Origin: Hyposmocoma kahamanoa
Taxonomy: Eukaryota; Arthropoda; Insecta; Lepidoptera; Cosmopterigidae
Direction: 5' to 3'
Assembly (NCBI RefSeq): GCF_003589595.1
Contig: NW_020654748.1
Coordinates: forward strand, 7,807,944 to 7,871,943
Length of the DNA stretch: 64,000 bases
Shown here piece after piece: positions 7,262 through 36,385 of this stretch (the first letter of the stretch is position 1; every line of letters starts with the position of its first letter). Made by a program: the position numbers and the translations under genes. The notes beneath the pieces were generated by a model. That model did not search any database. It had not been told where the DNA came from and saw only the letters and a program-made list of their open reading frames with translations.

Positions 7262-7372
7262 TATTACAATTCAAAACATTTATTGATAATAATGAAATTA
7301 AAATTCGATACTTGATTTTTTCAAGCCAGTCGATTTGGGTGCGTTTTAAAAATAATTGGATTATTTCTCGTC
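7262..7372 (-). other. serpin gene A exon 10 (shared 3' UTR exon)
   Basis: A pyrimidine-rich tract ending TTTTACAG (7373-7380) precedes the exon; AATAAA lies at 7279-7284. Copies of the same exon lie at 44487-44606 and 57800-57908, all starting xxC GAG AAA TAA. The array exons end on a codon boundary, so this gives an in-frame stop four codons into exon 10. The exon is normally untranslated because exon 9 carries the stop, but it would terminate variant v15, which lacks one. The polyadenylation site was not located. Confidence 0.75.
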
Positions 7373-7651
7373 CTGTAAAATAAAAATAAAGCGTTAGTGT
7401 CAAAATAATCAGTTACAGTAAAAGATTTTGGAGTAAATAAAAAAATAAGTTATTAATACAGTTTATTAATGTTTTCTTAAACTTTACGTAGGGGCCTCTT
7501 AGTAAACAAATGATTAGCAAAAAGACAAAAAAGAAGAAAGAAATAAATCTTAAACATTTCTATAACATATAGCATGCACTTTTCCAATATGCCGTTGTTA
7601 TTGCAACAATTCCCCGTTGATATTGCATGCAAGTTGACACGTATAGCTTTA

Positions 7652-7909
7652 CACTGTCGCCATTAGTTGAAAGGGCGCACGTGATATTTTTACAAAAAAA
7701 TTGTTATATGTATATATATAATATATAATTGTTATATGTGTATGCCGTGATCAGTAAATAATAGCCGCTGTCACTATTTTTATTTTTCCTACGTGTATGG
7801 TATGAAGTTACCGGAAGAGAAAAGAAGACATATTTCTAATATAATTTTTTTTACATATTTTCTCGGTTTTGACTTTTGGTCACAAGCGCCCTTTCAACTA
7901 ACGACAGTG
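7652..7909. repeat. MITE in the intron before exon 10
   Basis: The ends CACTGTCG and TTGAAAGGGCGC (7652-7680) are inverted at about 7880-7909. The inverted copy of this intron at about 14.06 kb and the paralogous stretch near 59.0 kb lack it, so both act as empty sites. Flanks fit a 2-bp TA target duplication, but this is not certain. Confidence 0.6.
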
Positions 7910-7930
7910 CATAATGAAAAGTATTATATG

Positions 7931-8052
7931 ATTATCACTAATTACAGGTTTCTTACGGGTTGAAGACAACCCATGACTATGGAGCGTGTAACCGTTTCGA
8001 AATATCGGGAACATAAAAAGAAATGAGTAAGAAACTTGTAATTAGTGATAAT
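7931..8052. repeat. foldback element with 25-bp arms
   Basis: Arm ATTATCACTAATTACAGGTT plus TCTTA (7931-7955) is repeated inverted at 8028-8052 with one mismatch. The loop carries a variant of the CCATGG/CGAAATATCGGG core also seen near 49130-49205. Confidence 0.6.
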
Positions 8053-8373
8053 AAACATTTAGTAAATAACAAAAGCCTTAAAATCGAAAGGAGTATTGTT
8101 AGTATGACGAAATGCGTGCAGAATAATTAATTATATAGTCGTTGCAGCGTGATGTAAAAGTATATTAAGCATTTGTATTGATAGCTCAGGAGTTTAAGAG
8201 ACGCAGTGCCGTAAAGGCTGCGGTGGCATATAGAATAAACAACCATCAGAATACTGTAAATTAATGAAGTCTACCTGTTCGATGCAACCTATCGAACCCA
8301 TCGAAACACAGCCCATAAAGCAATTTTCAAACACGAACATGCTTAACATTCAAAGGGAATCTTCTATCTTTAC

Positions 8374-8495
8374 CTACGAAACGAACACTCCGTTAAAAAG
8401 AATGTTTTGCTGAGCTTTCAATATAAATATAAAGGCGTGGTCAGCGCGAAAAGTTACTCTTGGTTTCAAAGCACTTCCGAACATGATAATGATTT
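8374..8495 (-). CDS. serpin exon 9 variant v22 (intact)
   Basis: Acceptor ATTATTACAG, then two bases completing a Glu codon, then IIIMFGSALKPR, VTFRADHAFIFILK and NILFNGVFVS; TAG sits on the donor TAG|GTAAAG. 39 residues plus the junction codon. Counting from the hinge, P1 is Gly with Phe at P2 and Ser at P1', so Phe-Gly or Gly-Ser is the likely scissile bond. It belongs to the same type as v9 and the deleted v12. It is the last exon 9 before exon 10. Confidence 0.85.
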
Positions 8496-9041
8496 CTGTA
8501 ATAATATTGTTACGTGAAAAATCGAAATTGAAGCCATAAATGTGCCAACATTCGGAGGTATACAATAGGTTATTGGGAATTCGGGAACTCAATATCTTGG
8601 TCGAACTGATACAAACATTTTGGTAAAGTAAAAATATGATGGATGACTAAATTTGTAAATTCATGAAAATATTCAATGTACATATTATAGGTAGTTGACT
8701 AGCAATTCATGGATCAAAATATACGAAAATTTACGAAAGCACTGAAGCGCTTTGAATAAAATTCGATTTCAGAATAGAATGCTGCACTTTTTTTGACAGT
8801 AAAGCGAACAATTGGTCATTTGAAATTCTAAACTTCTAATAAGTTTCTTCTAGTAACTATACCAAGGCTTCTAATAAGGTATATTTAATCAAATGAGTTG
8901 CGGATAAAACGTTTACAGTGTAAATTTGAAATAAAACCGCCCATGTAAGTAATTAATATGACTCCTAAGGCAAGACTACATTTTGAGAAACAAAGTTAGT
9001 ACACAAGTCATAATTTCGTTTAGTCCAAAAACCTGCTGTAC

Positions 9042-9166
9042 CTAAGATTGGAAAACCCCATCAAAGACAGCATTTCTCCCCACTTTCACCACGAAGAGGA
9101 ATGGATGGTCCACTATGAACTCAGTGTTTTTTGATAGCGCAAAGCTTGCACCAGGACCGTAAAATA
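9042..9166 (-). CDS. serpin exon 9 variant v21 (intact, Ala-Ser loop)
   Basis: Acceptor ATTTTTGCAG; junction codon Val, then FYGPGASFALSKNTE, FIVDHPFLFVVK and AVFDGVFQS, with TAG|GTACAG. 40 residues. P1 by counting is Ala with Ser at P1', suggesting a target cutting after small residues (elastase-like); this is inference. Decayed relatives are v19, the gene B copy at 45.2 kb and the gene C copy at 60.5 kb. Confidence 0.85.
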
Positions 9167-9202
9167 CTGCAAAAATATTTTATTTATTTACAGTCAAAGT
9201 AC

Positions 9203-9321
9203 CTAAGGGTGTTAGACGCCGTTAAATAGAGTGTTACTTTCTTCTTTGAGGATGAAGACAAACGAATGGTTTGCTTTAAATGTGGAGCCCTGCCTTAAGC
9301 TATTTAAGTTTATCATGAAAT
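9203..9321 (-). pseudogene. serpin exon 9 variant v20 (acceptor AG changed to AA)
   Basis: The reading frame is open from the expected junction: FMINLNSLRQGST, FKANHSFVFILK, TLFNGV, then TAA three codons before the usual TAG|GTACTT. The splice acceptor, however, is TTTTTTCAA instead of ...CAG (the plus-strand base at 9322 is T where C is expected). The loss of three end residues is minor; the missing AG is likely lethal to splicing unless a cryptic site is used. Confidence 0.75.
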
Positions 9322-10045
9322 TTGAAAAAAATGATTGTGATGTCGCACATGAAACCAAATATTGTCCTAACTCAAAATTGTGGATGAGAAAACATAATTT
9401 GAAAATTTTAGGAAAAGACTAAATGGATTTTATTGCGAATAATGAGGTTATTTTTATTTATACATAATACTTGATTCTCAATTTATAAACGGGAATATCG
9501 AAATAATATAATATATTGGTTTCTTTCGGTATTTTTTTTTAATTTTCAAATCGTCTCTCTCAATTGCACAATTTTCAGTTAGGACAGTATTTGGTTTCGT
9601 GTGCGATGTATTATGATGAACATAAAAATTGGAAGAAGTGTTTCAGAATTCTTTGTTGATTAGCCCTGCATATTGAGTTGCTACCGAGTAACTTATTGGT
9701 TACAATCTTTTACTGATTACGATCATAGTTTTGTTTTTTTAGGCCAAAATATATATTTACAGGTAGATAAATAACAGAATATGAAGAAAATATCTGTTTT
9801 GTTGTCCTTTACCATAGAAAAATGTTTTTTCTTTGATTTTGTAAGTTGTACACAAATACATAACTTAAAGACTATTAGGCATGAATATATTATTGAAGGA
9901 CGGCAATAGAGGGACTACAGAAGTGGTTAAACCTCGAAGATTGCGAAGGACAAAGCAGAATAAGCGACGTATTCAGAACGTATTAAGTATAAGTTCGTTA
10001 GCCGGTCAACTACACGCAGCAACCCGGCGTCAATAAATTCACAAC

Positions 10046-10169
10046 AGCCTGGAAAACCCCATTAAAGACAATATTTAATTCTGCTTTTACTAGCTATAAC
10101 AATGAGTGCCCTAATTAGAACTTGATGCTCCCATGTGGCATATAGCTCATATTAGCACCGTGAACAAAA
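10046..10169 (-). pseudogene. serpin exon 9 variant v19 (decayed, v21 type)
   Basis: Recognisable end NIVFNGVFQ aligns with the v21 end AVFDGVFQS. The loop part contains two in-frame stops, no acceptor remains, and the 578-bp TTAA-flanked MITE begins immediately upstream at 10170. The stop/donor is also lost. Confidence 0.6.
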
Positions 10170-10747
10170 TTAAGAGGGAGCATGCCAAAAAAGTTTTGAC
10201 GTTAGCTCCGCCCACATTTGTGAGACAAATATATGCCTGAAGTTCGCGTGACATGCGACAGGAGATGTTGAATTTTGCGCATTAAAAGTACCAAATTCGT
10301 TTTAGCGGAATAACTCTAAAACTAAGGGGATTAAAAAAAATCCGCAGTGACAGTTGTCGATCATGCATAAATACAATTAATTATCTAATTTTTGTCCTAA
10401 TAACCTGTAGCATTTTGAGGATGAATCGAAAAAATGTGAAAATTAGAGGTCGTGATTTTTATCTATCGAGGAAACTTTATTGTTTTATGTTTCTGATTAG
10501 TGTCTATGCTTGAATATATCGTGTAGTTACTCATACAATATTTTATTTTTAACTTTAAATTGGATATACCCCTCTAAAATCAAATCGAAGATTAGGTATT
10601 TTTCCTCTGCTTTTAGCGCTAAAACAAATTTGGTACTTTTAATGCGCAAAATTCAACATCTCCTGTGGCATGTCACGCGAACTTATATTTATCTCACAAA
10701 TGTGGGCGGAGCCAACGTCAAAACTTTTTTGGCATGCTTCCTCTTAA
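10170..10747. mobile_element. 578-bp non-autonomous DNA element with TTAA flanks
   Basis: Long inverted ends: GAGGGAGCATGCCAAAAAAG from 10174 and its reverse near 10722-10743. The arm identity extends for about 150 bases, through GTTGAATTTTGCGCATTAAA. Both sides are bounded by TTAA, the target duplication of piggyBac-like elements. No transposase is encoded. It lies directly upstream of dead exon v19. Confidence 0.7.
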
Positions 10748-10817
10748 GTAGGTTTGAAAGAGAAGCAAAGCCCTTAATACCAGGATAGCATGCGTATTTT
10801 ATGTCTAAAGAAAGTAC

Positions 10818-10942
10818 CTAAGAACGATATATTCCGTTAAAGAATGTGTTATCTCCTTCTTTGAGGAAGAAGACAAAGGGACGGTCTGCTGTAAATTTGG
10901 TTTGTTGACGTATTACTGCACTTAAAGTTGCTATCCCGAATG
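10818..10942 (-). CDS. serpin exon 9 variant v18 (intact, Leu-Ser loop)
   Basis: Acceptor GTCATTTTCAG; junction codon Ala, then FGIATLSAVIRQQTK, FTADRPFVFFLK and NTFFNGIYRS, with TAG|GTACTT. 40 residues. P1 is Leu and P1' Ser by hinge counting, suggesting a chymotrypsin- or elastase-like target. There is no close relative elsewhere in the array. Confidence 0.87.
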
Positions 10943-11196
10943 CTGAAAATGACAATGGTGTTGCATAGGTCAACGTGATCGGCAGGCGTACTGAGTGTGA
11001 TTAAATTATTTTGCTGGTGATTCCTGGATATTAACTGGCTGCCTAATTTCCTAATCCATAATTTACTACTGATCGCAGTTCCATGCATCTTGATGAAAAA
11101 TCTGCTTGCATAGATAAAAAAATAGCAATGAACGAATGACAAAGTCAAATGTAGTTATGGTCTGAATATTATGCTTTAAAAGTTTGATGAAAGTAC

Positions 11197-11321
11197 CTAT
11201 GGACGATATATGCCATTAAACAAAATGTTTTCTCCTTCCTTTAGGACGAATACAAACGGGTGGTCCGCTTTGAATTGATTTGGCCGAGGTAATAGCGAGC
11301 TTGGTAAAACTGCTACAAATG
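11197..11321 (-). CDS. serpin exon 9 variant v17 (intact)
   Basis: Acceptor GCAATTTCAG; junction Ala, then FVAVLPSSLLPRPNQ, FKADHPFVFVLK and NILFNGIYRP, with TAG|GTACTT. 40 residues. The loop reads V-L-P-S-S; P1 by counting is Pro with Ser at P1', or Leu if the loop slips one residue. Same type as v7, v8, v11 and the gene C copy at 60.8 kb. Confidence 0.87.
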
Positions 11322-11752
11322 CTGAAATTGCAAGGAATTGGACTAAATTGGCAAAAATAACGAATAAAAAAGGATCACGGTCATTTGTAATTGTATTTTT
11401 TTTTGTAGTAACGTATCCCATATGTGTTTCTATACGTTAGACCTAAGTTCCCTACGAAGCTTTTAACGGACTAGTTTGAGAGCTGTTTCTCATTGAACAA
11501 AAAAAAAAGTCATTTAGTAAATATGATATTTATTAAATATGTTAGATACAAATGTAGTACTCGTAAAGTCATTATTTGGAAAATGACCGCAGACTGATCG
11601 CAGTGGTAATTATAAGAAAAATATTGAAGAGAGAAAGAAGCATAGAAATACCTCAACAACTATAGAGGTAAAGATGCCTGTTAGACCGGCACAATGTATT
11701 ACCCCGTGCAAAATAAATATTTCTAATAACATGCTTTTATAGGCAAGATTAC

Positions 11753-11874
11753 CTAAAAGTTAAAAACTCCGTTAAAGAGAATGTATTGTCCTCTCTTCAG
11801 TAAGAAGACGAACGAATGATTCGCTGTAAACTCTGCTTTCTGATACAGAACTAAGCTTTCTACGATAAAGACAG
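11753..11874 (-). CDS. serpin exon 9 variant v16 (intact)
   Basis: Acceptor TATAATTCCAG; junction Ala, then VFIVESLVLYQKAE, FTANHSFVFLLK and ILFNGVFNF, with TAG|GTAATC. 39 residues. P1 is Ser followed by Leu by strict counting, or Glu-Ser one residue earlier. Its sister copy v10 carries a nonsense codon, and the gene C copy at 61.2 kb is related. Confidence 0.85.
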
Positions 11875-12439
11875 CTGGAATTATAAAGTTTCATTGTTAT
11901 TACTTTGTTTTGCTCAATAATAATACCACTAAAATAAGACGCGAATGTAAGATATGGAAAAGTCAAGTACCGCGTTATTTTTCTAACACATAGTTGTTAA
12001 AACTGAGAAAAAAACATCTACATACATAATTATGTATAGACAAATTTCATTTAATTCTGATGATCTTGGTTTAGAAATTATTGTCTAGAGACTAGCGAGA
12101 TAATAGGAATAAACCTTTACAATGTTATATGTTAGTTTCACGCTACGCTTCTGGGCCTTGCTAAATGCATAATAGTTGCGACAAATGTATAATTCTATCT
12201 AAAAAGGTTCAACGATGAGCAAAATCATATTAATTTAATGTGGTTGATGAGCGGTGATTCTCAATTTAGTTATTAAGTACTTTGGTCGTGGTTAATTTTA
12301 GTCATGTTTTGTATGGAACATAAATATCGTTGATATTTTTGTAAGGACAACTTTTTGATATTTGCTACATGTAACCGATGGAACACACATGATGCAAGAC
12401 ACATGCTTTACTTTAAAGTATTTTATTTGTGTGAAGTAC

Positions 12440-12567
12440 CAAATTTCGAAAAACTCCACTAAATATTATATCCTTTTTGAGCTTTAACACAAATACAAAG
12501 GGGTGATCTGCTCGAAATTGTAGCTCGAGGAAGAAAGCCAAACCGCTTCGCGTTTCTACGAGTATTT
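12440..12567 (-). CDS. serpin exon 9 variant v15 (Arg-Ser loop, stop codon lost)
   Basis: Acceptor CTAAATTACAG; junction Glu, then ILVETRSGLAFFLELQ, FRADHPFVFVLK and IIFSGVFRN. P1 Arg and P1' Ser predict a trypsin-like target. The usual AAT TAG|GTACTT is here AAT TTG|GTACTT, so the exon has no stop. Splicing to exon 10 would add Leu-Asp-Glu-Lys and then TAA. The rest is intact, so it is probably functional with a four-residue tail. Sister of v6. Confidence 0.8.
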
Positions 12568-13271
12568 CTGTAATTTAGAAAGGGATCCTGTTGAGAAATT
12601 TATGTTTTGAGAATAAAATTAATCTCTATAATAGCTGATATAACGCACTGACGTCAGCGTTCATTCTTCGTTTGATCATATGTTATAACGTATTCCGACT
12701 CTGGAAAATGATTTCTTTATTTTTCTATTAGTGGTTATGTTGTAGTTTAGTTTTTTACTATATCTGGTTTGTGTTTATTAAAGTAAGTATAAATTCTCTC
12801 TATCTCAACGTTAAATGCATTTTTGTAGCCGTATTTACTACATATTTTTAAAAGTTAAGTAAAGTTAACGTTAAATGTTCTTGTGTTACTTTCTAAAACA
12901 AATGTAACAGAACAGGTATTCGGTTTCAACGTCTGCTCCTAGGTATTCGAGGACACATATAGGTATATCTTATATTAAATACGCAACATTTTTTTTTCAT
13001 TCAATATCTGTTTATATGTCAGTACAGCTTAAAGATTCATTCGAGACTGGACAATACCAGAAAATGCCATAACAACTATACTCATATTAACTCATAAGGT
13101 GTAGTGTGAACTCCAAAGGCGTGTTAAAATGAACAAACCCGTCAAACCAAAGTAGGGTTGAAATGGTATAGCAAGATATTATAAGTTCAATTGCCAGCTC
13201 GAGTATTCTAAAGCACATAAATATTTACGGTCAAAATTGGGAAGCTATGACCCCGGTGATAACATTTCCGT

Positions 13272-13393
13272 TTAAAAGTGGACGATTCCCGTAAAGAGTG
13301 TAAATTATGTTGTCTTTAGCAAAAAGCCAAACGGGTGGTCTGCCTTGAATGTCTTTGATAAATTTGGAGGGAGGGAACGCGACTCGAAAAATC
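13272..13393 (-). pseudogene. serpin exon 9 variant v14 (premature TAA)
   Basis: Acceptor AATTTTTCAG; junction Gly, then FFESRSLPPNLSKT, FKADHPFGFLLKTT, then TAA (13305-13307) followed in frame by FTLFTGIVHF. The inverted sister v13 has CAA at that codon, so the stop is a derived change here and in v5. Truncation would remove the last strand, which serpins need to fold. The TAG|GT donor is also absent. An Arg-Ser pair sits in the loop. Confidence 0.7.
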
Positions 13394-14760
13394 CTGAAAA
13401 ATTAATTTAGTTTTTTTCTCAATCATATTACGTCTGTGTTTTCATTAGACATTTACTAAACTAAGCAGGAACAATTTCTAATAAAAATAATAACTTTCGG
13501 CTACCAGTAGAGTGAAATAATTTCCCGCCTCTATGTAAAATGAAAAAAAAATCCATTCATTTTTCATCACTATTTGTCTTTTTTATAAAACTGAATAAAA
13601 AAATGTTAATTTATCTCTTTAAGACATGGTTGTATAATTCATGCAATTTTGTTAACAACAAATTTCCAAACTAGCACATACATTTATCATGCCTAAATGC
13701 TGCATTTTGATTATGTATCTACCTGCCCAAAATAATCAGTTCACGTTTATTAATTTTACTTTCTATTGACATATACCAATATCAACATAAAATAAGTTCA
13801 ATTGACAGGTCGACTATTGTCAAGCACATACATATGTATTTACGGTCACAACAGCGGAAACTGTGCCCCGGTGGTGATGTTTTCGTTTAAAAGAGTATTT
13901 ACTATTCAATTAATTTACAGTATTCTGACGGTTGTTTATTCCATATGCCACCACAGCCTTTGCGGCACTGTCTCTTAAATCTTAGGCTATCGATACAAAT
14001 GCTTAACATACTTACACATCACGCTGTAACTACGAAATGTATAAAGACTGTATTCATTAAGTAGAGCTTTATGTATTAACTTGCATGTAATATTAACGGA
14101 GAATTGTTGCAATAGTAGTAGAAAATTGGAAGAGTGTATGCCTTAATGTTTAAAATTTATTTATTTTTTCTTTTTATCTATTTGCTAATATTTTTTTACT
14201 AAAAGGCGTCTATGTAAACTTAAAGAAAATATGAATAAATTGTATTAAATAACATTTGTTACTACTCAAAATTTTTACTGTAACTGATTATTTTGAAACT
14301 AACGCTATAATCAAAATGCAGCATTTTAGCATGACAAATATATGTGATAGCTTTGATATTTGTTATTAAGATTAGCATGAGTTACATAAACAACGATATA
14401 TTAAAGAACATAAAATCAAAATTGTTTCATTCAGTGTTATCAACAAGACAACATTGCATACGTTATGTACATATTAATCTGTTAATGTATAGATTTCATA
14501 TTTAATTTACATTACGTGGGAAATTAATTTATGGTACTGGTAGCCGAAAGTTATTATTTTTATTGGAAATGTTCCTAGTTTAGTAAGGCGTACCCAATGA
14601 AAATATAGACGTAGTGTGATTGAGAAAAAAAAAACTACATTAATTTTTCAGGATTTTGGGAGTCGCGTCCCTCCGAAGTTACCAAAGACATTCAAGGCAG
14701 ACCATCCCTTTGGCTTTTTGCTCAAGACGACACAATTTACTCTCTTTGCGGGAATTTAAA
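13300..14760. repeat. large inverted repeat inside the exon 9 array
   Basis: The stretch about 13.3-13.75 kb (v14 and its upstream intron) is repeated in reverse at about 14.31-14.76 kb (v13). The spacer 13.9-14.31 kb is itself a reversed copy of the intron next to exon 10 (about 7.39-8.27 kb), without the two elements now present there. In pre-mRNA the ~450-base arms could pair. Confidence 0.75.
14652..14759 (+). pseudogene. serpin exon 9 variant v13 (inverted copy)
   Basis: On the plus strand, opposite to the gene: acceptor AATTTTTCAG, FWESR, then a five-base shortfall relative to v14 that shifts the frame. The other frame continues as LPKTFKADHPFGFLL and KTTQFTLFAGI. Orientation alone excludes it from gene A mRNA. 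It preserves CAA (Gln) where v14 has TAA. Confidence 0.75.
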
Positions 14761-15264: not shown

Positions 15265-15354
15265 CTATTAAACGAACACTCCATTAAAAATAATATTTTA
15301 ATGGAGTTTAATGGACTCTTGGTAGTAATGCACTTCCATTCATGATAATGACCT
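15265..15354 (-). pseudogene. serpin exon 9 variant v12 (internal deletion)
   Basis: Acceptor ATTATTACAG, VIIMNGSALLPRV, then about 35 bases of the FHADNAFIFIL region are missing and the frame hits TAA. The end NIIFNGVFV is recognisable and TAG|GTAAAA is preserved. Same type as v9 and v22. Confidence 0.75.
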
Positions 15355-16237: not shown

Positions 16238-16362
16238 CTAGGCACGATATACGCCGTTAAACAGAATGTTTTTTCCTTCCTTCAGGACGAATACAAACGG
16301 GTGGTCCGCTTTGAATTCACTTGGCCGGGTTATAGCAGCACTTGTGAAAACTGCTACAAATG
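16238..16362 (-). CDS. serpin exon 9 variant v11 (intact)
   Basis: Acceptor GCAATTTCAG; junction Ala, then FVAVFTSAAITRPSE, FKADHPFVFVLK and NILFNGVYRA, with TAG|GTACTT. 40 residues. P1 Thr, P1' Ser by counting. The loop is identical to that of v8; only residues near the C-terminus differ. This marks a recent duplication of a block that also holds v12/v9. Confidence 0.87.
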
Positions 16363-16982: not shown

Positions 16983-16983
<1 letters not shown>

Positions 16984-17224
16984 TGTGTGCCTGAGTGAGT
17001 GAACAGAAAAGACTGAAACGTTTAATAGAGTGATGAGTGAAAATAAATAAGTAGTATATAATAAAAGTCATATAGTAAATAATATAGTAAAAGTCATTAA
17101 ATGGGAAATAATCTAAGACTGATCGCAATTGTGATTATTATAAAAATATTGCAGAGAGAAAGCAAAATCGTAATTATCGTCCGTGCAAAATAAATAAGAA
17201 CAAGTTTTCATAAATAAGCGTACA

Positions 17225-17345
17225 TAAAATTGAAAAACTCCGTTAAAGACATTGTTTCGTCCTCTTTTTAATAAGAAGACGAACGAATGATTCGCTGTAG
17301 ACTCTGCTTGCTGATACTAAGCTAAGCTTTCTACGACAAAGACAG
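17225..17345 (-). pseudogene. serpin exon 9 variant v10 (nonsense, donor lost)
   Basis: Acceptor TATAATTCCAG; VFVVESLA, then TAG, then YQQAESTANHSFVFLLK and VFNGVFQF. The end is TAT GTA instead of TAG|GTA, so both stop and donor are gone. It is the dead sister of v16. Confidence 0.75.
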
Positions 17346-18200
17346 CTGGAATTATAGAGTTACATTATTATTAATTTCTTTTGCTTTCATAATACCTCTA
17401 CATAAACGGCGAAGGCAAGATACGGAAAAGTCTAGTACGACATTGTTACTCTAATATATAAGTTGCTACAACTAAGAAAAAATACGTCTACATGCATACA
17501 TAATTATGTATAGACAAATTTCTCTTAATTCTAATGATCTTGTTTTATAAATTATTGTCGAGCGACTAGCGAGACAATAGGAATAAACCTTTACAATGTT
17601 CTATGTTAGTATTACGCTACGCTAACCTTTCTAAATGCATAATAGTTGCGACAAATGAATAATTCGGTCTAAAAAAGTTCAATGATGAAGAAAATCATTA
17701 ATTTAATGTGGTTGACGAGCGGTGATTCTCAATTTAGTTATTAAGTACTTTGGTCGTGGTTAATTTTAGTCATGTTCTGTATGGAACATAAATATCGTTG
17801 ATATTATTGTGAGGACAACTTTTTGATATCTGCTACACGTAACCGATGGAACACACATGATGCAAGACACATGCTTTATTTACTTCAAAGTATTTTATTT
17901 GTATAAAAAGCCTCTTCACAACGATTAATGAGTTTATTTAAATGTGTACACTAACTTTTGATAATAAAAACCGAAACCCTGACTAAACCAAAATAGTCTA
18001 GCAAGTTTCCTTTCAAACCATTCCCACTAAATATCAAAAGTGAAACGATGCTAAGGTCATATCAAGTTATTGATAGATGACTTCGCTATTCTTCTATATA
18101 TCTTCTGATGAATATAAATTCATTTTTATTTTTGATTGTTTGTCTAGTAGTAATTAATCAGTTACCAATAACCATTTCTGAAAACTTTTTGCATTAATAT

Positions 18201-18428
18201 CATTGACTTACAAATAAATGGACGACGGGTCTAATACAAAAACCACGAAAAAAATGTCCCAAGTCAACCTATTCGAAATTTAAATTGTAATGTCATCGCA
18301 GTATCGCGCTGTCAGTCGAACAAATAAAGACTAAAGCGGAGTTTGGCGCTCTGTATACGATTTTAGCGCCTTACAAGTGCGGACACTTTTTAGCGCGGAC
18401 CCGACGTCCATATAATTGTAAGTCAATG
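18201..18428 (-). mobile_element. 228-bp MITE, copy 1
   Basis: Terminal inverted repeats start CATTGACTTACAA, with ~30-bp near-matching ends. Flanked on both sides by ATTAATAT (18193-18200 and 18429-18436), an 8-bp target duplication as made by hAT-type transposases. The paralogous intron stretch near 15.09 kb lacks it. Copy 2 lies at 40011-40238 in the opposite orientation with the same length and almost the same sequence. Confidence 0.85.
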
Positions 18429-18495
18429 ATTAATATTTATTTTTTGCTTAAGTCAACATCAGGTACGTCAGATTCTGATACGACAACTGTAGTAC

Positions 18496-18973: not shown

Positions 18974-19101
18974 CTATAAAACGTATACTCCGTTAAAAAT
19001 AATATTTTGATGTGCTCTCAATATAAATATAAAGGCGTTGTCAGCGTGAAACGTTACTCTCTGTCTTGGTCGTAACGCACTGCCCTTCATGATAACGATT
19101 T
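18974..19101 (-). CDS. serpin exon 9 variant v9 (intact, Met-Lys-Gly-Ser loop)
   Basis: Acceptor ATTATTACAG; junction Glu, then IVIMKGSALRPRQR, VTFHADNAFIFILR and NIIFNGVYVL, with TAG|GTAAAA. 41 residues. P1 by counting is Gly with Lys at P2; a one-residue shift would make Lys the P1. It has an unusually basic loop (RPRQR) relative to v22. Confidence 0.85.
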
Positions 19102-20409: not shown

Positions 20410-20534
20410 CTAGGGACGATGTACGCCGTTAAACAGAATGATTTCTCCTTCCTTCAGGACGAATACAAACGGGTGGTCCGCTTTGAATTCACTTGGCCGG
20501 GTTATAGCAGCACTTGTGAAAACTGCTACAAATG
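20410..20534 (-). CDS. serpin exon 9 variant v8 (intact, acceptor tract replaced)
   Basis: Junction Ala, then FVAVFTSAAITRPSE, FKADHPFVFVLK and ILFNGVHRP, with TAG|GTATTT. 40 residues; loop identical to v11. The acceptor CAG is present, but the sequence upstream (TTTATAAGCCGTCAG) belongs to another repeat block (matching about 19890-19910 reversed) rather than the usual GCAATTTCAG tract. A recombination join at the exon edge may have weakened splicing. Confidence 0.75.
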
Positions 20535-20708: not shown

Positions 20709-20827
20709 CTAAGGATGATATACGCCGTTAAACAGAATGTTGTCTCCTTTCTTCAGGACAAATATAAACGGGTGGTTTGCTTTGAATTCACTTGGCTGGG
20801 TAAAACTTGTTAAATATACTACAAATC
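20709..20827 (-). CDS. serpin exon 9 variant v7 (intact)
   Basis: Acceptor GTAATTTCAG; junction Gly, then FVVYLTSFTQPSE, FKANHPFIFVLK and NILFNGVYHP, with TAG|GTATTT. 38 residues. P1 Thr, P1' Ser by counting, with Leu at P2. Related to v8/v11/v17 but with a clearly different loop. Confidence 0.87.
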
Positions 20828-23312: not shown

Positions 23313-23440
23313 CTAATTCCCAAAAACTCCGCTAAATATTACATCCTTTTTGAGCTTTAGGACAAATACGAACGGGCGATCTGCTCGAAATTGTTGCTTG
23401 AAGAAGAAAACGAAACCACTTCGCCTTTCTACGAATATTG
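23313..23440 (-). CDS. serpin exon 9 variant v6 (intact, Arg-Ser loop)
   Basis: Acceptor TAAATTACAG; junction Ala, then IFVERRSGFVFFFKQQ, FRADRPFVFVLK and VIFSGVFGN, with TAG|GTACTT. 41 residues. P1 Arg with Arg at P2 and Ser at P1' predicts inhibition of a trypsin-like protease, possibly a prophenoloxidase- or Toll-cascade enzyme as for other insect serpins (inference). Sister of v15. Confidence 0.87.
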
Positions 23441-24523
23441 CTGTAATTTAAAAAGAAATTCTGTTGAGAAATTTTTGTTGTGGGAATGGCGACTAGTTTA
23501 TTAATATCTAAAATAGAAGATGTTATTTCTTTTGCGCTCTGACGTCAGTGTTCATTGTTTATTTGGCCGATTCTTGCAAAGTATTCGCAATCGGACGAAA
23601 AATTTCGTTTTTATTTTTGTTAATACAAATTTGGTTATAATCTAGTCAATTTTATGCATATGGAACTACATACATAATTATTTTTTTTTATAATATCCCA
23701 TTTTAATATCTCAATACTAAACGTATTTTTGTAGCAGTAATTACTAAAATATTGATAAAATATTTATTTTCATTTCACATACTTTTTTTTTATTTATAGT
23801 CTCATTTTATACATGTACTTTACTATATATTTTGTATGTATTCTATTAGTGTATCAACATTTACTTAAAATATGTAAGTATATGTATTCGTACGTATATT
23901 TGATATAATAAACCTATCCTTGTAATTATTGAGTATGTAGATTTCAATTTCATGATTTATTAACTTTTTTTGCCAATCCAGGAGCCAACTTTCCTATTCT
24001 TCTTATTCAAAGGATAGTTGGAAGAAATCCCGTTAACGTTTTAATTTTTTGTAAAAATTTGTAAATTGTTTTGTTGTACAATAAAGTGTTTACATACATA
24101 CACATTTGTACAAGTAAATAAAGCTAACGTTAAATTTTCTTATCCTCTTATGTTACTTTCTACAACAAATCTAATAGAACAGTTGTTCGGCCTCGACGTC
24201 TGCTTCAAGGTAATTACATCTTATTTCAAATTACGCAATATTTTTTTTTTAATTCAAAATCAGTTCATATATCAGTAAAGCATAAAGATTCATTCTAGAC
24301 TGGACAATGCCATAAAGAAAATGACATAATAACTATACTCATATGAACGCATACGGTGTAGTGTGAACTCCAAAGGCGTGTTAAAATGAACAAACCCGTT
24401 AAAAAGCGTGTTGAAATGGTATAGCAAGATATTATAAGTTCAATTGCCAGCTCGAGTATTTTAAAGCATATAAATATTTACGGTCAAAATTGGGAAACTA
24501 TGACCCCGGTCAAAAATTTCCGT

Positions 24524-24643
24524 TTAAAAGTGGACGATTCCCGTAAAGAGAGTAAATTACGTTGTCTTTAGCAAAAAGCCAAACGGATGGTCTTCTTGAA
24601 TGTCTTTGGTAAATTTGGAGGGAGAGACGCGACTCGAAAAATC
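24524..24643 (-). pseudogene. serpin exon 9 variant v5 (frameshifted)
   Basis: Copy of the v14 type: acceptor AATTTTTCAG and FFESR are kept. Two single-base losses shift the frame so that the EDHPFGFLL stretch is out of phase. It also carries the TAA seen in v14 (LLKTT then stop). The flanks 24.3-25.0 kb match 13.0-13.75 kb over long stretches. Confidence 0.75.
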
Positions 24644-25021
24644 CTGAAAAATTAATTTAGTTTTTTTCTCAATCGTCTGTGTTTTCATTAGACATTTACT
24701 AAACTAAGCAGGAACAATTTCTAATAAAAATAATAACTTTCGGCTATCAGTAGAGTGAAATAATTTCCCGCCTCTATGTAAAATGAAAATGAAATCCGTT
24801 CATTTTTTTTCACCATTATTTGTCGTTTTTATAAAACTGAATAAAAAATGTTAATTTATCTCATTAAGACATGGTTGTATAATTCATGCAATTTTGTTAA
24901 CAGCAAATTTCCAAGCTATCACATACATTTATCATGCAAAAATGCTGTATTTTGATTATGTAACTACCTGAATAAAATAATTAGTTTATTAACGTTTATT
25001 AATTTTACTTTCTATTGACAT

Positions 25022-25143
25022 TTAATTGTATAAGATCCCGTCAAAAAGAATATTGTTCCCTTTCATAAGAAAGAATACGAAAGGATGATTCGCAATAAAA
25101 GTGGCGGGACTGGTAGTGTACCCGCTATAACCGATTGCAAATT
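25022..25143 (-). CDS. serpin exon 9 variant v4 (intact)
   Basis: Acceptor CTATTTTCAG; junction Glu, then FAIGYSGYTTSPAT, FIANHPFVFFLM and NILFDGILYN, then TAA. 39 residues. P1 is Ser by counting, or Tyr one residue earlier (Tyr-Ser). This is the only intact copy whose stop is TAA and not on a donor; a weaker candidate donor (AAA|GTAAAA) lies about 16 bases downstream. Confidence 0.8.
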
Positions 25144-25829: not shown

Positions 25830-25915
25830 AAGGTAGAGGCTATTCTAAAATACTATTTATTATGTCTGTCTTTAAGGACAATCAAAACTGGGGGATTCAC
25901 TTTAAACTCTATAGA
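25830..25915 (-). pseudogene. serpin exon 9 variant v3 (relic)
   Basis: EFKVNPPVLIVLKD matches the EFKADHPFVFVLK signature. Then an in-frame TAG and a decayed end follow. The loop part is too short from the only CAG acceptor at 25916-25918. Old and non-functional. Confidence 0.55.
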
Positions 25916-26254
25916 CTGTAGAAATATAAAATCGTCCACTTTGAAATAATTTATATGCCATCATTTATAATAATTACCTACTCCATAAAAAATAAAAAAA
26001 TAAAAAAAACACTATTTTACTACTTCATGATCATTATTTACAACGTATATTGCAATAAAGAAATAAACAATGAAGCCATAACAAGTGGTACAGCAATTCA
26101 AAAATAAAGGAAAAACTATTTAATGAATTGACGATACAGAAGGATTCCACAAAATTATCGCAACCTGAGATGAAATACACAAACCAAGACTTTCATGTAC
26201 ATTTATGTACTGTTTTTCCACTAATGTACAATTATAACAATATCAACAAAATAC

Positions 26255-26388
26255 CTATTGCATATATTTTCCTGAAAGTAAAGTTGTACGTCCAATGTTT
26301 AAAGCATAACAAAACGGCTTATCTGCTATAAATCATGCTGTAAGGGGAGGAATCACTACTAATGCTGAACCTACTGTACCTTCAAATT
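26255..26388 (-). pseudogene. serpin exon 9 variant v2 (single TGA inside an otherwise open frame)
   Basis: Acceptor TTCATTTCAG; junction Glu, then FEGTVGSALVVIPPLTA, TGA (26333-26335), then FIADKPFCYALNI and TTLLSGKYMQ, with TAG|GTATTT. Splice sites, phase and both halves of the frame are intact, so the nonsense codon is the only lesion. It falls between the loop and the FIADKPF strand. It could be a recent loss, a polymorphism or a sequencing error. Use of this exon would make a truncated, non-inhibitory serpin. Confidence 0.75.
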
Positions 26389-27587: not shown

Positions 27588-27732
27588 CGTTTGCAGCAGC
27601 TGCTTCAGCACCTTCTTCATTGACTTCAATGAATGCCTTTTGGATGGCTTTACTTACAAACAAATTTCCTTCGCCCTTTAACAAACGACTCAGTTGGGCT
27701 TGTTGAGGGTCGAAAACACGTTTCACATCCAT
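27588..27732 (-). CDS. serpin gene A exon 8 (reactive-loop hinge)
   Basis: Acceptor TATTTTCAG, donor G|GTAAGC; 48 codons plus one base. [18 protein letters not shown], then [10 protein letters not shown] and the hinge [15 protein letters not shown] (residues 340-354, P17 = E345). Small residues at P15-P9 are the hallmark of inhibitory serpins able to insert the loop. It is the last common exon; the one-base overhang sets the phase for all exon 9 copies. Confidence 0.93.
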
Positions 27733-28568: not shown

Positions 28569-28778
28569 CTTTAGAAGGACGTCTTTAAGATCAGTCTTGG
28601 TTTCAATCTTGAATTTGGGCAAAGAGACGTTGACATCAAAAGTGTACATCTTTGATGTGGCTGATTCCAAGGCGGAAGGATCTTTAAGTTTGTCTACGAG
28701 AGCCGCAATGCCGTCAACTTCTTTAGGTAGAATTACTATGAAAGAGGCTTCACCTCCTTCGTAAGGCATCTCCAACAA
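28569..28778 (-). CDS. serpin gene A exon 7
   Basis: 70 codons. MPYEGGEASFIVILPKEVDG is the conserved M-x-Y-x-x-x-x-S-F-x-I-x-L-P stretch of serpin strand s2C/s1B. Then KMYTFDVNVSLPKFKIE and TDLKDVLLK. Acceptor TTTTAG, donor AAG|GTAAGC. A frameshifted copy lies at 46444-46653 (gene B). Confidence 0.93.
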
Positions 28779-28927: not shown

Positions 28928-29068
28928 CTGAGCATTCAACTCGTCGCTATCAGCATATTTGAAGTCGCCTTGTACGTGCATCATTGGAACTTTGATTGTT
29001 TTGTCTTTGGAGACGTGGAAGTCTTCGTCCTTCGTGCTTTCCTTTTTGAAAGGGCTGTCCCATTTACC
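28928..29068 (-). CDS. serpin gene A exon 6
   Basis: 47 codons, GKWDSPFKKESTKDEDFHV to YADSDELNAQ. Together with the end of exon 5 it makes NAIYFKGKW, the conserved breach motif. Acceptor ATTTCAG, donor CAG|GTAATA. The gene B copy at 46873-47013 keeps the full frame. Confidence 0.93.
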
Positions 29069-29268
29069 CTGAAATTTATAAACACATATAAGAATAATTG
29101 TCAGTGAAATAGAATGATGCCAATTGGAGTTTATAAATATACATAATTTATAAAATCTATTACAGTCAGATATTTCCTTTTCATTTGTACACCGAGCACT
29201 TGAATCTTTTCTATACTTTGTACCTTGACTTACCTTGATTTACCTTGAAATAAATTTACTTGGCTTAC

Positions 29269-29367
29269 CTTGAAATAAATAGCGTTGACGAGTACACTGC
29301 GGGTGTCGGAACTTAAGTCATCAGCTGACACTAAATCTTTGATACGGTTGTTGGTTTGGTCTTCAAC
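29269..29367 (-). CDS. serpin gene A exon 5
   Basis: 33 codons, [18 protein letters not shown] to [10 protein letters not shown]. The N-x-T-x-x-x-I-x-x-L-v region is typical of serpin helix F and strand s3A. Acceptor TTCGCAG, donor AAG|GTAAGC. Three further CAAG|GTA donor-like motifs follow within 45 bases downstream. Confidence 0.93.
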
Positions 29368-29457
29368 CTGCGAAGGAGTACGATTTTTAATACACGCAGC
29401 AATTTCAAACGACAAACATTTATTAGATATTGTTTAGAAAAGGATGGAACTGTTTAC

Positions 29458-29661
29458 CCAAGTATTGATTTCCTTTGCTGTTTCCGTGCTCTTCGTGAAA
29501 TCGACATTCTTCACTTCAGAGTTGAAGATATCTTTGGTGATCGCAGAAAATTCAGGATTCAATTCGGAACCATCAGCAACATATATTTTGCTAGCTGTTT
29601 TGAGCTCGACACCTTTCACTGATTTCAGCTCTTCATTCAAACGAGGAAATACAAGTTTTGT
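29458..29661 (-). CDS. serpin gene A exon 4
   Basis: 68 codons, [15 protein letters not shown], then [30 protein letters not shown] and AKEINTW. This is the serpin helix D/E, strand s2A and helix F region. Acceptor TTTTTTAG, donor TGG|GTAAAC; joins exon 5 as INTW-VEDQT. Confidence 0.93.
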
Positions 29662-29814
29662 CTAAAAAGGAAAAAACGACTGGTTAATCGAGATCGAGTT
29701 GACAGGTGTCGTTTTGTGCCAACGCACAAAAATTCTGACATGCTTCGACCATTGGTAATAAAATGTGAGATCGTCTTTCATTTAAATGCATCAAACTTGT
29801 CAGAATTTACTTAC

Positions 29815-29958
29815 AACGTTATCGTTGGGCAGACCAATAGCCTTGAGAAGCTCGTCATGGGATGCGCCCTCCGACGCCAAGCTAAGTTGAGCCAGAGGAG
29901 TCAACACAGAGAACGCAGACAATACCACACTTTTATCCGGGTTGCTCTTTACCACTTC
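29815..29958 (-). CDS. serpin gene A exon 3
   Basis: 48 codons, [18 protein letters not shown], then [20 protein letters not shown]-x-x-x-S-V-V-L-S-x-x-S-V is the helix B shutter motif of serpins. Acceptor ATATTGCAG, donor GTT|GTAAGT. Confidence 0.93.
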
Positions 29959-30528
29959 CTGCAATATAAAAAGCTATTTTTATATCTTTACATGAGTATT
30001 TATTTATAACGAAATATTAGAAGAAATTTGAAAAGATATAATATCTGCAACAACTTCAAAAGAATGCAGTCTATAACTGCAAGTTAAATATACTATAGGT
30101 GCTTTTTCGTAATGGACCATTGTGTTCTACCTCCTTATGGGTAATATGTTTTTCAAATATTTTATCAAGAGTAGAAATTTCTGAGAAATACTAACTAAAA
30201 TTTCTGTTACTGTTTCTGAAAATTTGTAATTTACTTTGTGGTACAATAAAGTATTTAAATAATAATAATAAAATTCCGTAGTACCAACAGGAACAAAATA
30301 CAGGTAATTTTGGGAACGTCGCGTCGCTTAGCTATTCTAATTATTTTCAAACCTGCGTAGAACAATTTACAGAATCTCGTTTCAACGGTTGGGAAATTAA
30401 ATTTTCTTTGCAGCATGATATTTTTGTAAGATACGAAGTTTAGTTGATAGATGATTGAATGATTGAACGAGCTTACATTTGATGTGTTTTTTAATTAGTG
30501 TCAATTTTTCCTATACGTATGTAATACT

Positions 30529-30771
30529 CACCTTAAACGAAAAATAAATTGAATGTGCTAATGCCATTTTGCCCGTGACACGCTGATACATATTGAGAAA
30601 AAAATACACGATCATCGAACTATGACTTACTTGGATATATGTTTAATTAAACAAGTGTCATTTGTAATTCCCTTTAAAATGAAGAGATGATCGTGTATTT
30701 TTTTCAATATGTATCAGCGTTTCACGGGAAAAATGGCGTTAGTACATTCAATTTATTTTTTGTTTAAGGTG
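30529..30771. repeat. MITE in intron 2 with ~85-bp inverted ends
   Basis: CACCTTAAACGAAAAATAAA to ATACACGATCATC (30529-30617) is repeated inverted at about 30685-30771. No coding content. It lies about 40 bases downstream of exon 2 in the transcript direction. Confidence 0.75.
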
Positions 30772-30813
30772 GATATAACATCTATATATGAGCGAAAAGA
30801 AGTAAAGACTTAC

Positions 30814-30914
30814 GGAAAACATTCTTGCTGTAAATTGGTTATTTCCCTCTCTAAGGAGATTGTCCAGTTGCTTCGGATCTTGTTCGGCCATGACTGCAGC
30901 CACTAGAACCGATA
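30814..30914 (-). CDS. serpin gene A exon 2
   Basis: Two bases plus 33 codons. It begins inside the signal peptide (SVLVAAVMA) and continues EQDPKQLDNLLREGN and QFTARMFS, the start of helix A. Acceptor ATTTTGCAG, donor TCC|GTAAGT. Signal cleavage is expected after AVMA (residue 16). Confidence 0.92.
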
Positions 30915-33099: not shown

Positions 33100-33149
33100 T
33101 TTCGAAAAGCACTGTGCAGCCCCTATGACTGCATAGTGCTTTTCGACGA
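33100..33149. repeat. hairpin in intron 1
   Basis: TCGAAAAGCACTGTGCAG and its near-perfect reverse CTGCATAGTGCTTTTCGA around a short loop. Confidence 0.7.
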
Positions 33150-33970
33150 CCTTTACTGTTACTGAACCAATTAATAAGCAAATGTGACATTTGTAATAAG
33201 TATAAATAAAATAATTATGGAAATTATCCCATGCGCAACTATGTTAATTGGTAGCTTTAATTAATGGTTGGCAGACGAAATTAACTGCAGAACGTATCTA
33301 AATTACTGTTTAAAGAAAAAGAAAACACTACACTATTGATAAAGATTTTCAATTTATAATTTTATTCTACAATAATCGATGCCAAAAAAATAAACCAACA
33401 GAGAGAGCGCGCAATATTGCAGTGACGCAATATTGCTATTAACATTGAGTCAGGAGTTGGCGTTTATACCTAAACTCAACTATTTTCAACAATGTATAAT
33501 AGTGTCCAAAATTAGTGAGTTTTGATGTAACGAATACAATAAAATCATTCATTTCGTATTATCAATATCACTATTATCAATATCATTGTTACATTAGAAT
33601 TGACATTGAAATACAACGTGAATGGGTAAACATGATCGTTATTAATGAAAAAATTACCTAGTAAATTCAGCAAAACTTAAGCAAATGTAAAAAGGACGAC
33701 TGAACCATATGAAACACTTCCGTCGTTTAAAAAACTTTTCAAATTTGTAGGTAGATGTTTGTAGATTAACAAATTAAAATTAGTCAGACGACTATGGTAA
33801 TAAATTTTATTTTTAAATTGTACCGATACTTAATATGAAACAAGTTTTAGGCAATAGCTTTCGAACTATATTTGATTGGTGGTACAAAACTGGTTCCTAA
33901 TTAGACAATGATGAACATTAAAACGACTGCTATGGAAATTTTAAATTACACATTTTCGAACGGCTACGGA

Positions 33971-34117
33971 ACCGTCGGTGTTTTGTAGAAATGTAATTAA
34001 AAACTAAATTAAATTTTAAACAGGCTAAATATTTGAAAACAGCCTTTACAACCTAAAACATTCTCCCCTGAAAAATTTTTCGAAATGTCGGTTACGCCTT
34101 TTCTACAAAACACCGAC
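33971..34117. repeat. foldback repeat in intron 1
   Basis: CGTCGGTGTTTTGTAGAAA (about 33972-33990) and its exact reverse complement near 34099-34117, with ~110 bases of AT-rich loop. Confidence 0.65.
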
Positions 34118-34234
34118 GACATTACTTGTGTCCATATCTGTCTGTTTAAAATAGGTATCATTCAAACGGAGTGTTGTCAACAGCAGAGTTGACACTGGCA
34201 TGATGTAATCGTTGATTCTAGTCGTCTGGATATA

Positions 34235-34245
34235 GGGAAATTCCC
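34235..34245. promoter_or_regulatory. palindromic Rel/NF-kappaB-like motif
   Basis: GGGAAATTCCC, a perfect palindrome close to insect kappaB sites, in intron 1 of a serpin. One 11-mer in AT-rich DNA can occur by chance; there is no other support. Confidence 0.2.
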
Positions 34246-34724
34246 AAGTGCGGTACAACTTGTAATATCAATCTGCTATGTTAAGTTCCCAGAATTCAAT
34301 GTTATTGTGTATAAATATTGTTTCTGATTAGGTAAAATATGCCGAGACTCAATTATAGATAGAACTTTATAGATAATGAATATCGCCATACTAATAACTA
34401 CCAATGGCCTTTAACGAGTTTTGTGGTAACGTAACAGACTATAGACATTGGTATACTAATTTAATGACACTTAGAATTATCGAATAAAATATCTGTTGAC
34501 AAAGGCATTGAGAATAGCTATTATATTTTCGGTTTCTGGGAGTTTGGTTGGTTTGTATACATTCTAAAATTGCCTTTAAAAACGTTGTGGCCATGTTGGA
34601 ACGATTATTGCGATATTAATGTGATTTTATTTATATTACCTATGGTATTCTAACCGGGAATGTTTATTCATTCATAATAGAATCTGGTCAGATTGCGGAA
34701 AAGCCCAAGCCTACAATTTCATAC

Positions 34725-34913
34725 TTTTTTTATGAGACCAAGTGACGGGACTAACAAGTCTGTCTATAGCAATTGCATAGAGTGGCAACTCAGAGCTTGA
34801 AACCGCTAATATCTGAGGAACACTGCCTCTACCCCTGTCGCTTTGAGACTAAAAGCTGAAAAATCTCACGTTCCTGTAATTTGACTAGCACCCTAAAAAC
34901 CCGGAACGTTACA
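34725..34913 (-). mobile_element. SINE-like repeat, family S copy
   Basis: Reverse of a unit found seven times in the window: a start like GGGTGCTGGTGAAATTACAG, a middle like AAAGCTCTGAGTGGCACTGC, and an end like GTCACTTGATATTATAT then an A/T run. Diverged. It gives rise to spurious short frames. Confidence 0.65.
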
Positions 34914-35136
34914 TTAAAAACAATCAGTCAGACGGTAAATATGACAGAAATTAATTTGGTATGTTTGTTTTAGTTAGCAAAGCTATGATCATTAAATTGT
35001 TACCCATTGTGCAATTCTAGAGTTCCGTTCAAATCAAACTGATGAAATAATTGCTGTGATAATGTGAAGTAAATAAGAAACAAAACAAAATTATCTTTTA
35101 TAAATGATCTATGCAACCTTGACTGTAACTAACAAT

Positions 35137-35172
35137 CGTGTTCCAGTGTATCTACAGATACACTGGAACACG
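35137..35172. repeat. perfect 36-bp palindrome
   Basis: CGTGTTCCAGTGTATCT, two bases, then its exact reverse complement; a 17-bp perfect stem. It sits in intron 1. Confidence 0.9.
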
Positions 35173-35467
35173 TTTTGTAACAACCGGACTTGAAAACTTA
35201 AAATGTATACATATAAAGATCAGCTTAGTGTGGTACCTAGGTTATACAATATTGGTACATGCCGTTTTAAAGTCATCAACAGAAATGTATACAGTTTAGA
35301 AGACTTTTTAGAAGTTCACTGCTGGTCTAAAAAGTAGGGTGGTGAAACCGTGACCATGGGACCTATAAAGGGCCCGAAACGTCGGTTTGTTTGAAAAAAA
35401 ATCTTTGATTAATAATTTACGTAAAAGTGTACCTATTGATATCTTTGTTCGCTATTATAAATGAAAT

Positions 35468-35630
35468 TTTTTTTTATGATACCAAATGACGTTTGAACAA
35501 GTCGTGCTCTTGGTGGTAAGGGACACGCCTGTCCATAGCAAATGCAGTGCCACTCAGAGCATTAAATCGCAAAGGTCTGGCACCGCCATTGCGCTCAACA
35601 CCCTGAGACATAAGTTGACAAATCCTATGT
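35468..35630 (-). mobile_element. SINE-like repeat, family S copy
   Basis: Reverse orientation; GACACGCCTGTCCATAGCAA and CAGTGCCACTCAGAGC match the other family S copies. The upstream part is truncated. Confidence 0.6.
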
Positions 35631-36293
35631 AGATGTTATATTATGGAAACGAAAGCAAAATTTACTTGAATAACTAACAAAGACGCGGGTAGACGCTTTT
35701 TGGGTACAAATACACAATGTATCTTCAAATATTTACGTTGAAATGTTAGCCTAGCGTTAATAATAATAATAATAATAGTATTTAACAAAGTTTATTTCCT
35801 ATGAAATTTAATGTTCTAATGAAAAAATCAGCGACATTGTAAGTTCGCTATACGAGTTTGGATACTACCTTCACTTTATACAGATAACAATAGTTTTAAA
35901 ATACTAAAACATAGTAAGGTACGTAAGTAACTAAGTATAAAATGTCTGTCTTTATTGGAAACATAAAAACTGTAAAATCTCGTATAATTTAATTCGATTT
36001 ACATCCGAAAAAACTGTAATTTTGTGTTTCTTCTTACAACTAATCAGCGTATGGTCACACCATCATGAGTTAAGCAGAGTGCTGGACTATGTACATAATT
36101 GCACTTTATTTAGTTAAAATTCAATTTAAAAATAGGCAGTTTGTTTATCACGATGTTTGAACTATCTTTAAATATATTTAAGATTTTCAAAGGTACACCA
36201 TACATAAGCAAATTATCAAACCATGAAACTTCAAACATTAACATCGAAATCAATAAAACGGTAGACAACTACGTTTAAGAAAAAAAAACTCAC

Positions 36294-36312
36294 GTGTTAA
36301 AATAAGCTTCAT
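36294..36312 (-). CDS. serpin gene A exon 1 (start codon and signal peptide start)
   Basis: ATG AAG CTT ATT TTA ACA C|GTGAGT. Joined to exon 2 it gives MKLILTLSVLVAAVMA then EQDPK, a classic signal peptide. The start is chosen because it supplies the only missing base in phase, has a good donor and a CAAAC context before ATG. The distance of 5.4 kb to exon 2 makes this the least certain exon. Confidence 0.75.
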
Positions 36313-36385
36313 GTTTGTTGTTGCGCGTGCGACCGGTGATCTCAGACTAACTTGTTTCCATGATGACCCCTCTTTTTATCTGTTT
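36313..36385 (-). promoter_or_regulatory. candidate core promoter of serpin gene A
   Basis: On the minus strand AGATAAAAAG (36371-36380) lies about 30 bases before TTAGTCTG (36343-36350), an initiator-like sequence. This would give a 5' UTR of about 36 bases. Confidence 0.3.

Follow-up and report, generated by a model that had tools for sequence, protein, structure and literature searches.

We analysed a window of 64,000 nucleotides from Hyposmocoma kahamanoa (contig NW_020654748.1, positions 7,807,944 to 7,871,943), in which a serpin-1 gene, gene A, carries an array of alternative copies of the exon encoding the reactive-centre loop. Gene A is on the minus strand, with its coding exons 1–8 within 36312–27588 (window positions, as throughout unless a contig is named). 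Exons 1–8 give a continuous frame of 354 codons in which all internal junctions are GT-AG; the entering phases are 0, 1, 0, 0, 0, 0, 0 and 0, and exon 8 stops one base into a codon. All eight phase-compatible common exons proposed in an earlier, sequence-only reading of this DNA were recovered, and its assignment to serpin-1 is borne out: the nearest solved relatives are Manduca serpin 1K (445 bits) and alaserpin (443 bits), and the next best scores 247 bits. The body of gene A matches the solved structure 1sek at 1.5e-132; PF00079 is found on the matching NCBI records, and the Manduca serpin 1 match has an E of 3.3e-137. The hinge at the end of exon 8 is presumably of the inhibitory-serpin type.

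Exon 8 and exon 10 flank the copies of exon 9 (c1–c22), which extend from about 26.4 kb to 8.4 kb in tandem and in the same phase and encode the reactive loop and the C-terminal strands. A protein profile identified 20 places above 10 bits from exon 8 to exon 10 (19 sense, one antisense). Thirteen copies from the window served as seeds of the profile; 12 of them are among the 20 places and match by construction, which leaves eight non-seed places. When the array was shuffled 50 times with its dinucleotides preserved, one match above 10 bits arose in total (best score per shuffle: median 4.0, maximum 10.6 bits). The real array, rescanned alongside, gave 23 scores above 10, the three surplus scores being taken as the same places counted in overlapping pieces. 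A DNA profile built from the array copies found 21 places, 18 of them at E<1e-3. The 22 copies originally counted are thus the upper end of a range of 18–22: 20 are clear, and the full number requires two weak places, c2 (at 25924) and c5 (at 24418, not in the DNA profile). The 12 copies called usable do have an open frame and an AG acceptor in the correct phase, but only ten of them are complete in acceptor, frame, stop and donor, ending in TAG immediately before GT; c3 and c15 each have a defect. A possible donor of c3 lies further on, besides its AATAAA motifs, and the lost stop of c15 means that translation would run into exon 10, adding DEK and then a stop. Eight of the 20 clear copies are plainly dead through an in-frame stop, a lost acceptor, truncation or inversion.

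Table. Window positions of the exons of gene A, its exon 9 copies, the inverted intron piece and the parts of paralogs B and C
Feature	Position	Strand	Remarks
Exon 1, coding part	36294–36312	-	start codon; donor GTGAGT
Common exon 2	30814–30914	-	GT-AG, phase maintained
Common exon 3	29815–29958	-	GT-AG frame
Common exon 4	29458–29661	-	GT-AG frame
Common exon 5	29269–29367	-	GT-AG frame
Common exon 6	28928–29068	-	GT-AG frame
Common exon 7	28569–28778	-	GT-AG frame
Common exon 8	27588–27732	-	GT-AG frame; terminates in hinge plus one base, G
c1	26270–26388	-	dead, in-frame TGA; acceptor and TAG/GT retained; 11.5 bits
c2	25859–25924	-	doubtful relic; 4.0 bits, DNA profile E 0.026
c3	25022–25143	-	open frame; TAA without adjoining GT; two AATAAA just downstream
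c4	24525–24649	-	dead, c14 type, in-frame stop; both profiles, tree
c5	24383–24418	-	doubtful fragment; 6.7 bits
c6	23313–23440	-	complete; NCBI isoform X1 (P0007)
c7	20709–20827	-	complete; NCBI isoform X9 (P0003)
c8	20410–20534	-	complete; NCBI isoform X3 (P0002); upstream flank replaced at duplication joint
c9	18974–19101	-	complete
c10	17224–17345	-	dead, in-frame TAG, terminal stop gone
c11	16238–16362	-	complete; loop same as c8
c12	15271–15309	-	dead fragment
c13	14646–14758	+	inverted (antisense) copy, c14 type
c14	13269–13393	-	dead, in-frame TAA, without donor
c15	12440–12567	-	open frame; terminal stop replaced by TTG, donor GT kept
c16	11753–11874	-	complete; NCBI isoform X8 (P0006)
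c17	11197–11321	-	complete; NCBI isoform X6 (P0001)
c18	10818–10942	-	complete; NCBI isoform X4 (P0004)
c19	10049–10108	-	dead fragment, c21 type
c20	9200–9330	-	dead, without acceptor AG, early TAA
c21	9042–9166	-	complete
c22	8374–8495	-	complete; NCBI isoform X7 (P0005)
Exon 10, 3' untranslated region	7262–7372	-	begins GACGAGAAATAA; acceptor before 7372; AATAAA about 7284–7279; the 7262 end is that of the sequence-only reading
Inverted last-intron copy	13905–14309	+	partner 7387–7652 and 8120–8268; predicted duplex -308.8 kcal/mol
Paralog B, pseudogene	44445–49600	-	in-frame stop in exon 2; recognisable exon 6; frameshift in exon 7
Paralog B, exon 9 relics and exon 10	45716 and 45226; about 44615	-	
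Paralog C, 3' end	57780–61342	-	exon 9 at 61342 (in P0009), 60858 (broken) and about 60546 (relic); exon 10 about 57910

Self-comparison showed that the array contains repeated multi-exon blocks, c14 and c15 recurring with c4 and c6, c16 and c17 with c10 and c11, and c22 with c9 and c12. The joint at c8 lies four bases upstream of the exon and the upstream flank resembles the intron downstream of c11, so that the acceptor context of c8 derives from intron sequence, yet c8 is an annotated isoform. On the inverted piece, c13 is accompanied by a copy of the last intron. With duplicated blocks and dead, truncated and inverted copies all present, the history of exon birth and death that had been proposed is visible. 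One member of an inverted pair, 18199–18444 and 39993–40240 (97% identical), lies inside the array; the pair is likely a recent mobile element insertion.

Seven NCBI isoform records of H. kahamanoa are letter for letter the common exons joined to c6, c7, c8, c16, c17, c18 or c22. They are named antichymotrypsin-2-like (X1, X3, X4, X6, X7, X8 and X9 matched); public databases already annotate gene A and the majority of its isoforms, though under another name. About a dozen candidate isoforms had been foreseen, and these seven exist as protein records. The c6 record represents three clustered proteins, which probably brings the annotated isoforms of gene A to nine. The records are probably gene models.

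The seventh residue of the exon 9 peptide, which we take to be P1 in the register of Manduca alaserpin, is R in c6 and c15, L in c18, A in c21 and T in c7, c8 and c11, and is less clear in the others. Pooled over the pairs c6/c15 and c11/c17, the loop has 17 replacement and 5 silent changes versus 6 and 10 in the rest of the exon, its body (Fisher p=0.02). Replacement (dN) and silent (dS) divergence of the exon 9 body are 0.05 and 0.48 in c6/c15 and 0.05 and 0.29 in c11/c17, and the c6/c15 loop has a dN of 0.23, above its dS of 0.09. The safest reading is that the exon 9 body appears constrained and its loop relaxed or diversifying. Faster divergence of loops than of introns was unsupported: in the pairs left of ten once c7/c8 and c17/c18 had been dropped for aligning to themselves, loop DNA was no more divergent than the flanking introns.

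A whole-genome search and a reading of the flanks revealed a tandem cluster on contig C1468 that spans 180 kb and comprises copies and remnants of serpin-1, about eight in all and on the same strand. Their order from upstream to downstream is G, an exon 3 relic, F, E, C, B, A, a remnant of exon 9 plus exon 10, and D. Copy G is partial, with a stop in exon 2 and one exon 9 without its own stop, and the lone exon 3 relic between G and F is at 7945767 of the contig. The body is intact in F (one live exon 9), in C (one exon 9 in the annotated protein, two broken copies and a relic) and in D (one live, two dead, one without donor), and E is a pseudogene, as is B, whose exons 3–5 and 8 were not found by tblastn. 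In the window, exon 9- and exon 10-like sequence occurs upstream of gene A at 45.8–44.4 kb and 61.3–57.8 kb. The live exon 9 of D encodes the end of record P0008 and that of F the end of P0010; the live exon of C encodes the end of P0009 apart from its last residue. The exons of D and F termed D9d and F9 also end in TAG followed by GT. Open-frame copies make up 12/20 in gene A, and elsewhere in the cluster three of 14 places are used in annotated proteins. Between gene A and the downstream remnant sits a non-long-terminal-repeat (non-LTR) retroelement (2311–5780, minus strand) with a reverse transcriptase open reading frame (PF00078) and a first open reading frame with a Baculo_FP-type domain.

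In a tree of 33 lepidopteran proteins (33 of the 37 rows selected, rooted at the midpoint and without members of other serpin clades), the four intact-body copies of H. kahamanoa fall on one side of a branch with support of 100/100. Silent divergence among the four bodies is 0.35–0.65. The locus had been called orthologous to Manduca serpin-1; the serpin-1 identity stands, but the relationship is not one-to-one, the four tandem copies being co-orthologs. Exon 9 types are shared across genes in the exon 9 tree (bootstrap/Shimodaira–Hasegawa-like approximate likelihood ratio, SH-aLRT): c9, c22 and F9 (100/99), c6, c15 and D9a (99/97), c4, c14, c13 and C9a (100/100), and c21 and the B copy (99/99). 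The group of c18 and D9d is less firm (92/87). The order of exon 9 in D, C, E and B is collinear with c14–c22 of gene A. The recurrence of these types across genes, in corresponding order, indicates that the array predates the gene duplications, after which the sister genes lost most of their exon 9 copies. The ancestor would have had at least four types of exon 9, or about seven with synteny taken into account, and would have been duplicated whole several times; gene A would have kept every type, though nothing but dead copies of the c14 type, and would have extended its array by duplicating blocks, and the other copies would have decayed to few usable exons or to pseudogenes.

We put at about 0.88 the probability that, among the tandem serpin-1 copies, gene A is the one that bears the array, with an exon 9 splice panel, and that an arrayed ancestor was duplicated whole. 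One transcript would carry exons 1–8, supplying the serpin body and the inhibitory hinge; one of 10–12 usable exon 9 copies would be joined, supplying the reactive-centre loop and last strands; and exon 10 would supply the 3' end of every isoform. The outcome would be a set of secreted inhibitors that differ at P1, in which the expression of each copy and its protease targets are predicted from sequence. In most usable copies TAG directly precedes the donor GT, and the first exon 9 joined would be the only one translated, because anything spliced after its stop would be 3' untranslated region. Exclusivity at the protein level would then need no perfect splicing switch.

Several points weigh against this reading. 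The isoform records of gene A may be models; c3, c9, c11, c15 and c21 are without a direct NCBI match, and about two further isoforms are unseen in the P0007 cluster. In the exon 9 tree 12 of 27 inner branches are without resolution, and the B copy is a long branch. The terminal dN of the gene A body is the lowest of the four (0.048 versus 0.089–0.092), but so is its dS (0.151 versus 0.190–0.359), and it is not clear that constraint on this body is stronger than on its sisters. The contrast between loop and body comes from two pairs only, picked for gap-free alignment; in c11/c17 the loop dN of 0.31 is not above the dS of 0.40, and the recent pair c8/c11 shows the opposite, with 0 changes in the loop and 4 replacement and 0 silent changes in the body. 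DNA identity is 72% in the c11/c17 loop against 76% and 68% in the flanking introns, and 82% in the c6/c15 loop against 70% and 87%. A mostly decayed locus, in which few exon 9 copies are truly spliced and the rest are open frames not yet broken, would suit the proportion of dead copies, the identical loops of c8 and c11, of which at least one is possibly redundant, and the end defects of c3 and c15. We consider it unlikely, as seven copies equal annotated isoforms exactly and body codons are conserved relative to silent sites in c6/c15 and c11/c17. Much less probable again is an assembly artefact, in which repeats or alleles would have been assembled into an array that does not exist. In its favour, the cited parts of PMC11373647 rate the earliest published assembly of H. 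kahamanoa, probably that analysed here, as of medium quality (contig N50 0.059 Mb), the window has two 10-N gaps, of which one falls within the array, and the blocks of c8 and c11 show 96% identity across 172 bases; the other duplicate blocks differ by 13–31%, too much for alleles, and the exon order is repeated in paralogs D, C and E.

A regulatory role of the last intron was weighed as well. The inverted last-intron copy might pair with the intron beside exon 10, loop out c14–c22 and favour the upstream copies. Beyond the stability predicted for the whole duplex, its main part of 249/266 bases reaches -207.9 kcal/mol, compared with a best of -104.7 and a median of -64.6 in 60 random pairs of the same size. 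This looping is nonetheless quite improbable in our view, because the pairing looks like a by-product of the inverted duplication that also carries c13, the matching intron of paralog C has no inverted partner (compared only inside the window), and annotated isoforms use copies on both sides of the inverted piece. Conservation between gene A or the inverted copy and paralog C is about 70% over 7538–7651 plus 8120–8268, 13905–14169 and 58878–59136, and the sole acceptor in 57000–61229 that fits the last residue of P0009 lies inside this stretch. We rejected the conserved stretch as proof of a regulator, since other introns also align between the paralogs.

For exon 10 itself, an acceptor, AATAAA and likeness to the paralog copies were found; the P0009 record of paralog C apparently uses another 3' exon. 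All four copies examined, at 7372, about 44615 and about 57910 of the window and at C1468:7804898, start with NNCGAGAAATAA or GATGAGAAATAA. This start would provide an in-frame spare stop if that of exon 9 is lost; the copy of gene F reads CAA there. Dscam-type docking sites, sought in intron 8 and the last intron versus the flanks of the 12 usable copies, gave nothing beyond background (the best window means were -18.2 kcal/mol upstream and -18.5 downstream, and the background minima -18.3 and -21.0). Weaker donors of exon 9 than of the common exons were not supported (U1 pairing medians -5.5 versus -7.3, p=0.26, with the c15 donor misplaced).

The cluster may also record splice isoforms turning into separate genes, with daughters of one exon 9 each beside a master gene that holds every type; we regard the chances of this as even. 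The annotated exon 9 is of the c16 type in C (by synteny), of the c18 type in D and of the c22 type in F. Against daughters with a single exon 9, the records of C (P0009) and F (P0010) are named isoform X2 and each stands for two proteins, which implies a hidden further isoform of C and of F. If the proposal is true, one genome would show the trade-off between splicing and gene duplication that is reported as a correlation across insects.

Gene A is a lepidopteran serpin-1 with alternative exon 9, a gene type published for Manduca, Bombyx and Cydia. Manduca sexta serpin gene-1, the subject of work by Jiang et al. in 1994 and 1996, reportedly has common exons 1–8, an alternative exon 9 with the reactive loop and a shared exon 10; its product is 60% identical to a gene A isoform, and gene A would share the exon 1–8/9/10 plan. 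The H. kahamanoa gene differs in lying in a tandem cluster and in its one inverted copy, and perhaps in its many readable dead copies. Isoform counts of the serpin-1 type in the cited parts of PMC10671500 are 14 in Manduca, six in Cydia pomonella and four in Bombyx. The same parts describe Cydia CpSPN1 as likewise having ten exons of which only the ninth varies, with differing P1 classes; its six isoforms were confirmed by reverse-transcription PCR, whereas the H. kahamanoa panel is predicted from sequence and annotation. PpSerpin-1 of Pteromalus puparum similarly joins C-terminal alternative exons one base after the hinge, as gene A does after its eight common exons, and replacement sites of the alternative exons evolve faster than those of the common exons (PMC10513286, parts cited). 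It has 21 C-terminal forms, more than H. kahamanoa, and decayed sister arrays are unmentioned in those parts. There, C-terminal alternative splicing is reported in 192 of 731 insect genes of this clade, at position +1 after the hinge in 161 of the 192, and across species splicing correlates negatively with the number of gene copies.

The mechanism is already known, and the value of the locus is its visible record, with live, damaged, inverted and freshly copied exons beside decayed sister arrays. Exon gain, exon loss and exchange between isoforms and gene copies can be ordered at one locus. The cluster is a concrete case of the interplay between alternative splicing and gene duplication, which Yan et al. 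2023 call largely understudied (PMC10513286, parts cited). No title or abstract among the literature matches listed concerned this locus, and the word serpin is absent from the main text of the H. kahamanoa genome paper (PMC11373647).

ARAGORN found no tRNA in the window, and no Rfam family matched at its gathering score. Rel-type sites gave four matches versus 0.95 expected, a number reached in four of 100 shuffles; two fall within copies of exon 9, and the remaining two are a single palindrome, GGGAATTTCC, matched on both strands of intron 1 (34235–34245). Four self-inverted repeats of 200–600 bases, at 9343–9606, 10163–10754, 30509–30791 and 50745–50947, are probably fold-back elements or resemble miniature inverted-repeat transposable elements (MITE-like).

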